DNA from: Acaryochloridaceae cyanobacterium SU_2_1 | GTDB taxonomy: Bacteria > Cyanobacteriota > Cyanobacteriia > Thermosynechococcales > Thermosynechococcaceae | NCBI GenBank assembly: GCA_012030735.1 | Contig: JAAUUW010000007.1 | Coordinates: 1-46,218 of the forward strand | Reading direction: 5' to 3' | DNA: 46,218 nt | Part shown: piece after piece, positions 9,397 to 13,911 of the stretch | How the letters are laid out: each line of letters begins with the position of its first letter | Position numbering within the stretch: the stretch's first letter is position 1 | Made by a program: the position numbers and the translations under genes | The notes under the pieces: model-generated | Told to the model about the DNA's origin: nothing | Database searches by the model: none | The model's input: the letters and a program-made list of their open reading frames with translations, nothing else

Positions 9397-10513
9397 CTAT
9401 TTTAAGGTGAGCTTATAGTCAGGGGAAATAGCATCCGCTGCTATGGCCACCTTTTCGCGCACCTTGGGGGGCAAGGGTACATAGCCTAAGGTCGTTGCCA
9501 TCTCCTGCCCCTTCGTTAAGCCATTTTGAATCATGATTTCCATGGCCTTAGCCTTCTCTGGTGCATCATAAGTTTTATAGGCCAACAGCCAGGTGTAGCT
9601 GACAATCGGGTAAGAATCGGCCCCCTCAGGATCAGTAATAAAAGCCCGCAAGTTATCAGGCAACACTACTGCGTCAAGGGTTGCCGAAGCACTCTCTGGG
9701 GTTGCTTCAATATATTTCTTAGATTGATTTTCTAAGGCCGCAAAGGTTAGATTGTTGTTCTTGGCATAGCCATACTCAATATAGCCAATCGCACCCTCTG
9801 TTTGCTGAATCTGAGCGGTCACCCCTTCATTCCCCTTGTCCTACACTGCCAGAGGCCGGCCAAGAGACAGTCTTGCCGTCGCCAACTTTTTCTTTCCACT
9901 CTGGGCTAATGCTGCTGAGATGCTTGGTGAATACTCCCGTTGTACCGCTGCCGTCAGAGCGATGCACGACGGTGATAACTTTGTCAGGAAGTTTCAGATC
10001 AGGATTGATGCTCGCAATTTTGGGGTCATTCCATTTCTTTATTTTCCCTAGGAGGATGTCCACATAGGCTTCTCGACTTAATTTTAGCCCCTCAACCCCA
10101 GGCACATTATAGGCCAACACAATACTCCCAGCCGTCATTGGCAGGAGTAAAACCCCCTTAGATACCTTGGCAATTTCTTCATCTTTCATGGCAACATCGC
10201 TGGCCCCAAAGTCGACGGTGCCCGCTGAAAATTGCTCAACGCCAGCGCCGCTGCCCACTGATTGGTAGTTAACCTGTAGCTTCGGTACGTCTTTGTTCAG
10301 TTGTACAAACCAGTTTTGGTAGAGAGGGGCCGGGAAGGTAGCACCTGCACCCGTCAGGGCTACATTTTGAGGTAACGCAGTATTAGCGGCGGTTACGATC
10401 TCGGATGTATCAGTACCCGGTTTATCGGTTCCCGATTGCGGGCTACCTGTTTCTCCAGCTCCGCAGGCTGTCACGCTTGCCAGACAAGCAAGAGGGACAA
10501 TAACGCGAAGCAT
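9397..10513 (-). CDS. pstS: Periplasmic phosphate-binding lipoprotein PstS, one frameshift
   Basis: PstS captures phosphate in the periplasm and delivers it to PstCA. Starting from the ATG at 10513, the sequence opens with a lipoprotein signal (LACLASVTAC, lipobox VTAC). It continues with GAGATFPAPLYQNWF, the phosphate-binding SVGSGAGVEQF and FGASDVAM, and HRSDGSGTTGVFTKHL. The frame then stops after SGSVGQGE, and the family-typical continuation (KGNEGVTAQIQQTEGAIGYIEYGYAK) follows directly in another frame. One missing base near 9836-9843 restores the join, so I read it as one gene. The open frame also extends to 10600, but those residues precede the signal peptide. A Pho-box-like repeat lies ~260 bp upstream. 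Confidence 0.9.
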
Positions 10514-10600
10514 TGAGCCGATTTTGGCTGACTTAAAAAAAACAGCTCCTAAATCATCAGTATGCAAAGAATATCTGATGTGGGAAAAGATATTTACCAA

Positions 10601-11441
10601 AATACATGTTCTCCAAAAAACATAATTTTAGTCCTTGTTGATGCTAGGTCTTTGGGTCACCCATCCCTAATCAGCCCACTTACTATAGCCTTGGCAATGC
10701 GAGAACGATGCCAGAGCGTAAATAGCAGCAGAGAAACAATCAACAACAAAGGAGCAGGACAGCAAGATTATAAGGTTGCAAGGTAAAGGGAAGGTTATCA
10801 AGAGCCATTAATATTGCTGTCAGAGAATATAAGGCCTTACCCCGTTCAGGATAAGAGGGCCAGAATCATTTTTTGTATGACTTCGCAAGATTACAGCTTG
10901 TCTTGATGTTCAGGAACCCTTCTCAATATTATGAGTATTCGCAATGCCCAGGCAACCAGTGACTGTAAACGCTTCACTACAAGTAGTTTGAGCTTTATGT
11001 CGCCTCTGCTAAGGTCAGGATACTCGCGATGAGACCGTCTTATATTGCTCCATCTTTTGGTGCTCTGTTGGGTTGAGCAGGGACCGGTATTCCTCACAAA
11101 AGATTAAACAAAGCGTTAATTTGCTTGTCTAAGGGGGAACGCTAACTTCTAGGTACGTAATTTCACCTTATTGGTCCACCCACATAAAAGTGACTCCGTT
11201 GATCCCTGGTGACAAGGGTCATGGGGCCTGAGAAAAATCTTTTTTACTCATCCTGGCCCTCAGCCTAATAATAATGGGCTACTTCCAATGCTTGGTCCCA
11301 TCAAGCGCTATTCCAGGCTTTCTAGCAGAACTCGAGTAGGTGGTACTGCTACTCATCTATTGATAGTGATAGACAATCTTCAGAAAATCAAAGAACAAAT
11401 ATGATGCGACGACTAAATGCCCCCCATGGAGGATACCTAGA
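10601..11441. other. Long intergenic region between pstS and the repeat-protein gene
   Basis: About 840 bases hold no convincing gene. The pstS-proximal third contains the Pho-box-like repeats (10770-10799). A minus-strand open frame at 10891-11097 (68 codons) resembles nothing I know and has no ribosome site. The right end carries GGAGG nine bases before the GTG of the next gene at 11442. The divergent promoters of pstS and the 11442 gene must lie here. Confidence 0.6.
10770..10799 (-). promoter_or_regulatory. Pho-box-like direct repeats upstream of pstS
   Basis: On the minus strand the sequence reads GATAACCT, 3 bases, CTTTACCT, 3 bases, AACCTTAT. The first two 8-mers match the cyanobacterial Pho-box unit (CTTAACCT-like, repeated every 11 bases) at about 6 and 7 of 8 positions, and the third is weak. 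The SphR/PhoB response regulator binds such repeats under phosphate starvation. It lies upstream of pstS in the right orientation, about 260 bp before the start codon. Confidence 0.6.
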
Positions 11442-11801
11442 GTGAGTGAGATAAATTCTTGGGAATATTCACTAGTTGGTGATTTTTTCGCAAAGTTCAA
11501 CTGGTCGGGCAAGGAGATCGCTTTAGCCGCACCAAACTCTGGCAGTGAAATGCTAAATTGGCAACTGCAAACGGTCCAAACCTTTCTGGGTCGCTTGAAC
11601 TGGACTGGAGAGTCTGTCAAGCATCTGGAACATCTATCTGCCTTGCAAGGATTGTCGACCAGCTTAGCTGTCAAAGACTTTTTTCAGCTTTTTGCATGGG
11701 AAGGTCAACCAACGATTGGTGCCGTACCTGAGGTACCGACAGGATATCCGACCGAGCCAGAAGATGATTTCAGGCTTAATGATTTCTCGGATATGTTTTG
11801 A
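11442..11801 (+). CDS. Small repeat protein of a photosystem II assembly-type cluster (function unknown)
   Basis: The 119-residue protein contains three spaced copies of a motif F-F/L-x-x-F/L-x-W-x-G: DFFAKFNWSGKE (14-25), TFLGRLNWTGES (47-58) and DFFQLFAWEGQP (79-90), spaced 32-33 residues apart. It ends in an acidic tail FRLNDFSDMF. I recall similar W-G repeat proteins in the slr0144-slr0152 region of Synechocystis, which also contains ferredoxins and has been tied to photosystem II assembly. The ferredoxin 300 bases downstream fits that context, but the assignment is from memory. GTG start at 11442 with GGAGG nine bases upstream. There is no signal peptide or membrane segment. Confidence 0.6.
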   Translation: MSEINSWEYSLVGDFFAKFNWSGKEIALAAPNSGSEMLNWQLQTVQTFLGRLNWTGESVKHLEHLSALQGLSTSLAVKDFFQLFAWEGQPTIGAVPEVPTGYPTEPEDDFRLNDFSDMF

Positions 11802-12058
11802 AACCTTGAAGTCGACGAATTAATCGATTTGAATCGTGGGTTACGCTATGCCGCCAATACTATTGGGCTCAACGATTTAAACTATCTCTGTGAGAATTGA
11901 TTACTTTGGTGCCGCAGCATTGTGCATTCCTTTGGTTTTCTTTCTGATGTTGATTTAACCTATAAGATTTTCTCGAGATTGTGAAAGACTATCTCACCAC
12001 TGAGGAAATGGATCTAGCCGTACCTGTTTTTCAAGCCTATAGAAGCGCTCTTAACTAG
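11802..12058 (+). pseudogene. Broken small gene between the repeat protein and the ferredoxin
   Basis: In the same frame as the preceding gene, after its TGA, the sequence encodes a coherent stretch, DELIDLNRGLRYAANTIGLNDLNYLCEN. This is interrupted by TGA at 11898-11900 and resumes as LLWCRSIVHSFGFLSDVDLTYKIF. It then shifts frame at a T4 run (11968-11971) into EIVKDYLTTEEMDLAVPVFQAYRSALN and TAG at 12056-12058. Adding one T gives KIFLEIVKDYL, a natural join. The whole looks like one ~85-residue helical protein. I cannot see its start codon. The T deletion fits the error pattern seen throughout the window, but the TGA is a substitution-type lesion and suggests true decay or a base-call error. 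Confidence 0.55.
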
Positions 12059-12103
12059 AGTCTTGATGCATTGTTTTTTTTGGTTGCTTTTTCAGATTAA
12101 ATC

Positions 12104-12424
12104 ATGAACTCTTCCTCCTGTGGCTATTGCGTCACCTTAGTGGACCCAGAGCAACAACTCCAAGTCAAGATTGATGTGGGGCAAGACGAGCTGATTCTTG
12201 ATATTGCCGAAGAAGAAGGGATTGAACTGCCCTATTCTTGTCGATCAGGGAGTTGCTTTGATTGTCTAGGCAAATTGATCCAGGGAGCGGTGGAGCATAC
12301 GGCTAAATCTGCTAGTTTTCTGCAGCCAGAAGAAATAGAGGCAGGCTATGTATTACTCTGCTCATGCTCGCCTAGCTCAGACTGTACGATTCAAACTCAT
12401 CAAGCCGAAGAATATCTCAAGTAA
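12104..12424 (+). CDS. Plant-type [2Fe-2S] ferredoxin
   Basis: The 106-residue protein has the cluster ligands of plant/cyanobacterial ferredoxins: CRSGSCFDC (C-x4-C-x2-C) at residues ~46-54 and a fourth Cys in YVLLCSCSP at ~86. LILDIAEEEGIELPYSC and the Q-PEEIEAGYVLLC region complete the fold. It is longer at the N-terminus than photosynthetic PetF, and the loop reads RSGSCFDC instead of RAGACSTC, so it is probably a specialised ferredoxin rather than the main electron acceptor of photosystem I. Its position after the W-G repeat gene recalls slr0148/slr0150 of Synechocystis. ATG start. Confidence 0.9.
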   Translation: MNSSSCGYCVTLVDPEQQLQVKIDVGQDELILDIAEEEGIELPYSCRSGSCFDCLGKLIQGAVEHTAKSASFLQPEEIEAGYVLLCSCSPSSDCTIQTHQAEEYLK

Positions 12425-13254: not shown

Positions 13255-13911
13255 TTGTCTCACCATGGTGGTCATCCCATGCCCAAATTAGCCAGGGACA
13301 AACCTTACCCTTCTGCCCTGTCCGTGCAGGGGTGTTGGCTACTGGCAATCATGGCAATCATGGTCGGCTGTGTTCCCAGTGTCGATCTCAAGCCCATTGA
13401 GAATAAAATCAAGGCAGAGTTTGAAACTAAAACAGGTCGTTCTGTCAAGGCTATTACTTGCGAGCCAGGTGCTAAACAAGCCAAAGGAGAACGTGTCAGC
13501 TGCGATCTCTTCCTTGCGCATCAGCAATTATCTAGCTCGCCAGAGCAACCCTCTCCCCCTTCTGCTCCTCAGTCCCCAACATCCTCGGCACAGCCTGATC
13601 GAACCCCAGCTGATGCTCTGAAGGTCGAGGTGGAGCTGACCGATAATCAGGGCAATTTTAACTGGAAGCTGCAGGACTCCTTGATTAATGTGGTGGAGGT
13701 CGAAGCCAAGATCAAAGAAGAGTTTGACAAGCAACGCCGAACTACACCCGAGGTTGACTGCCAAAAGCAGTTGATTATTGCCCGAGCAGATAACAGTTTC
13801 ACTTGTACAGTCGAGGAGCTTGAATATGGCCCCAGTACTGTTAAGGTCACGGTCAAGGATGGCCAAGGAACTGTGGATTTTGAGTTAGTTGATGGGCCTG
13901 AAAATCGTTAA
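13255..13911 (+). CDS. DUF4333-like lipoprotein with a duplicated domain
   Basis: The 218-residue protein begins with a basic segment, a hydrophobic stretch and a lipobox (MAIMVGC), so it is probably lipid-anchored outside the cytoplasmic membrane. Two similar halves follow. Residues ~46-140 contain VDLKPIENKIKAEFE, two cysteines and a DNQGNFNWKLQD strand. Residues ~145-215 contain VEVEAKIKEEFD, two cysteines and DGQGTVDFELVD. This is the DUF4333 pattern repeated, with a Pro/Ser-rich linker (SSSPEQPSPPSAPQSP) between the halves. ATG at 13279 is a likely alternative start. Its role is unknown. Confidence 0.7.
   Translation: MSHHGGHPMPKLARDKPYPSALSVQGCWLLAIMAIMVGCVPSVDLKPIENKIKAEFETKTGRSVKAITCEPGAKQAKGERVSCDLFLAHQQLSSSPEQPSPPSAPQSPTSSAQPDRTPADALKVEVELTDNQGNFNWKLQDSLINVVEVEAKIKEEFDKQRRTTPEVDCQKQLIIARADNSFTCTVEELEYGPSTVKVTVKDGQGTVDFELVDGPENR

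Follow-up and report, generated by a model that had tools for sequence, protein, structure and literature searches.

A WG repeat protein gene, a globin pseudogene and a Fed4-type ferredoxin gene as probable remains of a second slr0144-slr0152-type operon copy in a deep Acaryochloris lineage

Why should an intact gene for a small repeat protein and an intact ferredoxin gene stand on the two sides of a broken gene? The question is raised by a short stretch of contig JAAUUW010000007.1 of Acaryochloridaceae cyanobacterium SU_2_1, of which 46,218 nucleotides (hereafter the window) were analysed. The original prediction had seen in these three genes a small cluster. They are better read as the relic of a second copy of an operon of the slr0144-slr0152 type, the middle gene being a pseudogene, and the identity of the parts is well supported.

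Parts of the locus

The first gene (11442..11801, + strand) begins with GTG, is intact and encodes a repeat protein of 119 aa, hereafter WG, which the ORF list, homology and motifs assign to the slr0145 position type. The motif F[FL]xx[FL]xWxG recurs at residues 15, 48 and 80, i.e., with spacings of 33 and 32 residues. The three motifs are thus evenly spaced, as had been predicted, but they do not all read F-F-x-x-F-x-W-x-G, since the middle one is FLxxLxWxG and only the other two are FFxxFxWxG. Among 200,000 shuffles of the sequence, one such motif occurred in 197 and two or more in none. The expected acidic tail was also found, the C-terminal 20 residues being net acidic by 5 and ending in LNDFSDMF. 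Both features of the wider family, a VxxF[FL]xxxxW repeat and a C-terminal tail resembling [LI]xx[LF]xx[LM]F, are present in the window protein.

Immediately upstream, positions 11407..11445 (+) appear to preserve the C-terminus of an slr0144-type V4R protein. The vestige, RRLNAPHGGYLE-stop, resembles ETRLHNGEYLE-stop of genome G003, and its stop codon overlaps the WG start; the same overlap is seen in G002, G003, G004 and G006. It is short and the evidence for it moderate, the pattern G.YL.-stop occurring twice in the six frames of the whole window, the vestige site included. Within the vestige, 8 bases 5' of the GTG, direct reading of the sequence reveals a Shine-Dalgarno-like GGAGGA (11428..11433, +). 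A promoter scan returned 5 sites against 3.3 expected, which is the chance level.

Between 11802 and 12103 there is no ORF of 50 aa or more. Protein comparison and trees identify in this interval (11826..12058, +) a pseudogene for a bilin-type globin resembling that of slr0149, of which the C-terminal half, residues about 79-155, is left. Its best match is a gene on contig C143 of genome G001 (66 % identity over 50 aa and 59 % over 29 aa, E 7e-21). The slr0149-type domain is not intact, given that the N-terminal half is gone and the remainder is interrupted by an in-frame TGA at 11898-11900 and a frameshift near 11969-11975. Of the two descriptions given earlier, that of a broken helical gene is therefore upheld and that of a small helical protein is not. 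The remnant aligns with the slr0149-position globin, one of the cyanobacterial bilin biosynthesis-associated globins (BBAG), and such genes are called Phycobilisome by Pfam; unlike these, it consists of a broken C-terminal half only.

The third gene (12104..12424, +) encodes an intact, plant-type [2Fe-2S] ferredoxin of 106 aa with the loop CRSGSCFDC, which profile matches, tree and loci assign to the slr0150/Fed4 position type. It scores 108.5 bits against TIGR02008 (cut-off 81.15) and 56.1 bits against PF00111, and has the plant-type C-x4-C-x2-C...C pattern. Both the ferredoxin and its RSGSCFDC loop had been recognised correctly, but the loop can hardly be called unusual: [SAC]CFDC is found in 17 of 19 Fed4-position genes, i.e., those between a globin (or Fd5) and a TPR gene, 19 being a lower bound because some contigs end before the TPR gene. 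In the loci of relatives of the window ferredoxin, from whose neighbour list ferredoxin matches were left out, CFDC occurs in 1 of 22 ferredoxin loops, namely that of G001. The closest relative found (63 % identical) likewise lies on C143 of G001, where the gene order is V4R-globin-ferredoxin-TPR and the ferredoxin adjoins the globin matched by the remnant. Among the genomes searched, these two are the only Fed4-type ferredoxins within the genus.

In a tree of 30 rows, the window ferredoxin falls into one clade with 14 operon-borne Fed4-position copies, apart from PetF (95/89). It thus shares with Fed4 (slr0150) the operon position type, the [SAC]CFDC loop and the operon clade, whereas the Fed4-position copy of Synechocystis salina lies outside this clade and has the loop CRAASCVAC, so that “Fed4” as a name reflects position no less than sequence. 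An assignment of the window ferredoxin to the slr0148-type Fd5 was rejected; no other ORF of loci L031-L058 gave a match at E<=1e-3.

The repeat protein family and its operon

WG genes were found in 36 of 58 genomes at E<=1e-3 and, by profile search at E<=1e-5, in 231 of 388 genomes of the class, the window's own genome being counted in both cases. The window protein matches the genes that follow V4R in G002, G003, G004 and G006 with E values of 1e-28 to 1e-33. F48, W54, W86 and F119 are invariant in 23 WG sequences and nearly invariant in a set of 57 chosen sequences. Motifs were counted by regular expression in 75 of 77 named homologues, the repeat proteins of L198 and L229 being left out for length: two motifs are present in 46, three in 12, one in 8, four in 6 and none in 3. 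A looser regular expression for the tail matched 43 of the 75; most of the other 32 end in some variant of this tail. About five motifs can be discerned by eye in the longest ORFs (221-257 aa), which come from relatives of the same family and whose true starts are probably further in.

Searches of Pfam and NCBIfam at E<=1 matched the window protein to no family. The 57 chosen members had no match in NCBIfam and gave five stray families in Pfam (best E 0.0018), and membership of a family in these collections was rejected, as was kinship with a solved structure (best E 0.21). Structure prediction, proposed earlier for the three motifs, did place a short helix at each of them, at low confidence: the two AlphaFold2 models (pLDDT 58 and 61, pTM 0.21 and 0.27) both contain only four short helices, one per motif and one at the tail. 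The open PMC literature on the operon genes, globins and Acaryochloris, which mostly excludes subscription papers, yielded in the parts covered no study of the repeat protein itself; slr0145 appears there in one published list of predicted photosynthesis genes. For WG, slr0145 is taken here as a name by operon position, the comparison having been made with sequences other than Slr0145 of PCC 6803.

A likeness of the locus to the slr0144-slr0152 region of Synechocystis had been pointed out at the outset, with the conservation of gene order across cyanobacteria suggested as a check. Similarity to that region and a strongly conserved neighbourhood in related genomes were both found, and the globin remnant and the ferredoxin also belong to operons of this kind. 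Among the named V4R loci, which are the best 80 of 212, the first V4R gene is directly followed by WG within 1.5 kb in 76. The exceptions are L229, with WG 2.5 kb on, L223, where a globin follows V4R, L220, where V4R stands alone, and L250, where the contig ends. A further 28 loci, some from the same genomes as the 80, were fetched for having WG. The gene directly before WG belongs to the V4R cluster in 26 of them and the one directly after it to the globin cluster in 27; L035 is without either neighbour and L041 without V4R. For the neighbours in G003, Pfam returns V4R, Phycobilisome, V4R, Fer2, Phycobilisome and TPR, the first Phycobilisome match (21.7 bits) being just below the cut-off of 22.2. 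All seven loci of one family, including that of Synechocystis salina, have the order V4R-WG-globin-V4R-Fd5-globin-Fd-TPR, which is that of slr0144 to slr0152 in the descriptions taken from PMC6002478 and PMC4284462. A kinase comes next after TPR in four of the seven, and in one of them (L168) the Fd gene is in two frames.

Further loss of the operon was observed in Crocosphaera watsonii WH 8501 (L220), with a lone V4R gene, and in Aphanocapsa sp. GSE-SYN-MK-11-07L (L223), where V4R is followed by an slr0149-type globin only. Moreover, many of the loci L232-L263 (Arthrospira, Microcoleus, Planktothrix and others) have a split operon: the second V4R gene and the kinase flank an slr0149-type globin gene and an Fd5 gene that are read from the other strand.

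According to the sections of the papers drawn upon here, work on Synechocystis links this operon to the assembly and repair of photosystem II (PMC4853703, PMC9145668), photosystem I being mentioned as well (PMC4853703, PMC10151467), and Slr0144-Slr0149 interact at the thylakoid (PMC9880817). The redox-linked assembly put forward in the original prediction would fit such published work. Excerpts of two further papers deal with the ferredoxins: fed4 (slr0150) and fed5 (slr0148) were both dispensable in one study (PMC4284462), and in another fx5 failed to segregate and fed4 was again dispensable in Synechocystis (PMC8887894).

Set against the slr0144-slr0152 (pap, PSII assembly) operon of PCC 6803, as represented by the sequences of S. 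salina and its relatives, the window locus has the repeat gene, an slr0149-like globin and a Fed4-position ferredoxin in the same relative order as S. salina and the six other genomes of its family. It differs in being without equivalents of slr0144, 0146-0148, half of 0149, 0151 and 0152, and in that a partial second copy lies on another contig. The locus holds only 0145-, half 0149- and 0150-like parts and not the complete gene set in order. Its WG gene is not placed between V4R and globin genes but between a V4R vestige and the second half of the later globin, which makes it an orphan member.

A second copy and two operon lineages

The window's own genome is a MAG of 206 contigs, 87.5 % complete and with 3.6 % contamination; one reaction-centre (Photo_RC) match above the cut-off indicates that photosystem genes are present. 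Its contig C189 carries V4R, globin, V4R, Fd5, globin and TPR genes and then ends. No kinase was seen up to the contig end, and there is no Fed4, as in the other fetched Acaryochloris operons. The interval of about 110 bases between V4R and globin gave no WG match. An ATG overlaps the V4R stop there, placed as the WG start is in G003, G004 and G006, and after five codons reaches a stop, a short vestige. A profile search with 23 rows found one WG gene in the genome; another copy may be unassembled, given the incomplete and fragmented state of the MAG. It seems that in this genome the only repeat protein left is encoded away from the main operon copy. The Fd5 gene of C189 (L101:1667-2145) is in two frames, through either a frameshift or a sequence error.

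Sequence comparison indicates that the genome is that of a deep Acaryochloris lineage. The window msrB is 78-82 % identical to those of other Acaryochloris, as against 84-94 % among the latter, and the C189 V4R is 76-80 % identical, as against 87-92 %. The order of msrB, DUF4333, hydrolase, acetolactate synthase small subunit and a next gene of 305 aa is kept in five genomes of the genus; from this shared order and the msrB identity, the possibility that the window contig is a contaminant was rejected. In a WG tree of 18 rows the window falls within the Acaryochloris clade (99/95) and is basal there, and the C189 globin and second V4R take the same basal place in the genus clade. A first tree of 21 rows was unresolved, with long branches for G005, G012 and G170; the 18-row tree omits these three together with G053, G034, G090, G224 and the plasmid-like second copy of G002, and includes five others. 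The WG, globin and ferredoxin trees were all built on chosen rows.

The globin remnant, read through, behaves differently: it pairs with the G001 globin (100/99), and the clade that unites the other globins of the genus, that of C189 included, does not contain it. Since WG groups with the genus and the other two parts, globin remnant and ferredoxin, with a second lineage to which G001 also belongs, the window locus probably joins, on the evidence of these trees, pieces of two operon lineages. WG was not found in G001 by either the 58-genome search or the 388-genome profile search, and as there is none to show the source lineage, WG may have come with the second lineage as well.

Several copies of the operon are known in the genus. 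G002 has two, and A. marina MBIC10699 has one each on pREC2 (L270) and pREC3 (L269), both plasmids being typed as conjugative. The pREC3 copy has a WG gene with a frameshift and no annotation, and its globin is followed by IS genes; in G005, WG is cut off short and placed after a globin. In their annotated stretches the other Acaryochloris copies, those of pREC2 and pREC3 included, differ from the window locus in being without a Fed4-type ferredoxin. Passages of two papers had already described part of this picture, namely the Acaryochloris homologues of slr0144-0148 and 0151-0152 beside an slr0149 homologue misnamed apcA (PMC6002478), and the frequent loss of such clusters in many cyanobacterial genomes and their duplication in others (PMC10151467). 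In Acaryochloris, known above all for chlorophyll d, this photosystem-assembly operon is thus seen in duplicate, on plasmids and in decay. Several genomes of the genus (L102, L104-L109, L035) also contain a third and divergent V4R gene, with an identity of roughly 21-34 % to the V4Rs of the operon, and at least twice (L105, L035) it adjoins operon pieces.

Origin of the locus and a possible role for the repeat protein

The findings show the locus to be what remains of a second slr0144-slr0152-type (pap) operon copy, and it appears probable that the two copies decayed in a complementary manner and that WG now serves in trans. This second copy has retained the slr0145-position gene, the Fed4-type ferredoxin and, as a pseudogene, half of a globin. 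WG would still be translated, using a ribosome-binding site that remained when the V4R gene was deleted. It would work in trans, its place being the putative thylakoid V4R-globin-ferredoxin complex encoded on C189, for which the Fed4 ferredoxin may be an electron carrier.

That both ORFs are intact with the gene between them broken, that the conserved WG motifs and tail have been kept and that the profile search found no other repeat gene in the genome all speak against a rather unlikely alternative, according to which the whole locus is dying, WG and the ferredoxin being intact only since the decay is recent and neither being now of use. This alternative nevertheless agrees with the broken state of the adjoining globin, with the damage to WG in other Acaryochloris copies (short in G005, frameshifted on pREC3) and with the dispensability of fed4 in Synechocystis as given in the excerpts cited above. 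Nor do the codon-position counts tell WG from a pseudogene. Between WG and its G003 counterpart, positions 1, 2 and 3 differ by 42, 32 and 71 changes, and the globin pseudogene has 12, 9 and 25, with several dS values saturated and no dN/dS derived; as the pseudogene shows the third-base excess too, this sign of past selection is no proof of present WG function.

Two intact genes on the same strand, about 300 bases apart, might also be taken for a small working module in their own right. This is improbable, for in the 19 named operons the Fed4-position ferredoxin is several genes away from WG, and neither gene is found upstream of msrB in the fetched flanks of the five genus genomes; WG and the ferredoxin adjoin here only because the genes once between them are gone. 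Still less probable is an artefact of assembly or binning behind the split between the window and C189. A fragmented MAG with some contamination would lend itself to such an error, and the frameshifts in the window pstS and in the C189 Fd5 could be sequence errors. However, genes on both contigs are equally far from other Acaryochloris (the msrB and V4R identities given above), the GC contents are similar (0.494 for the window contig and 0.478 for C189), and single-base errors do not amount to an absent globin half and an absent C189 repeat gene.

If WG indeed acts in trans from this operon relic, it could be a mostly unfolded linker in which the helix of each motif and the C-terminal acidic helix each dock a partner, so that the complex, which would support the assembly or repair of photosystems, is held together. 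A chain that is unfolded for the most part and bears conserved helical motifs, whose number varies, suggests a multivalent linker; the idea rests on the motifs and on weak models, both AlphaFold2 models being of low confidence. We would go one step further only tentatively: the repeat protein might be the founding member of a family of multivalent linkers so far not described, in which unfolded spacers separate about one to five WG motifs. Cyanobacteria would have joined such linkers to a V4R-globin-ferredoxin complex that they had inherited, and the window would then hold a freestanding gene whose product assembles this complex in trans. For the ancestral bacterial globin clusters, the passages of PMC10151467 and related text that were covered mention no repeat protein. 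These results show that the little-studied slr0145-position protein is built of repeats, is widespread in cyanobacteria and occupies a conserved place. The window moreover provides a natural case in which such a protein has parted from its operon, so that its role becomes testable; should the complex depend on it, a copy standing free of the operon is expected to remain in use.

Two further observations concern the surroundings of the locus. A pstS-like phosphate-binding gene (window 9397-10600, - strand) consists of two ORFs in different frames, 9827-10600 and 9397-9822, as a result of a frameshift or a sequence error. The DUF4333 protein (13255-13911, + strand), encoded between msrB and the hydrolase gene, is 23-27 % identical to its syntenic counterparts in the five genus genomes, and its neighbours (msrB, hydrolase, acetolactate synthase subunit) are about 71-84 % identical to theirs in the same five.
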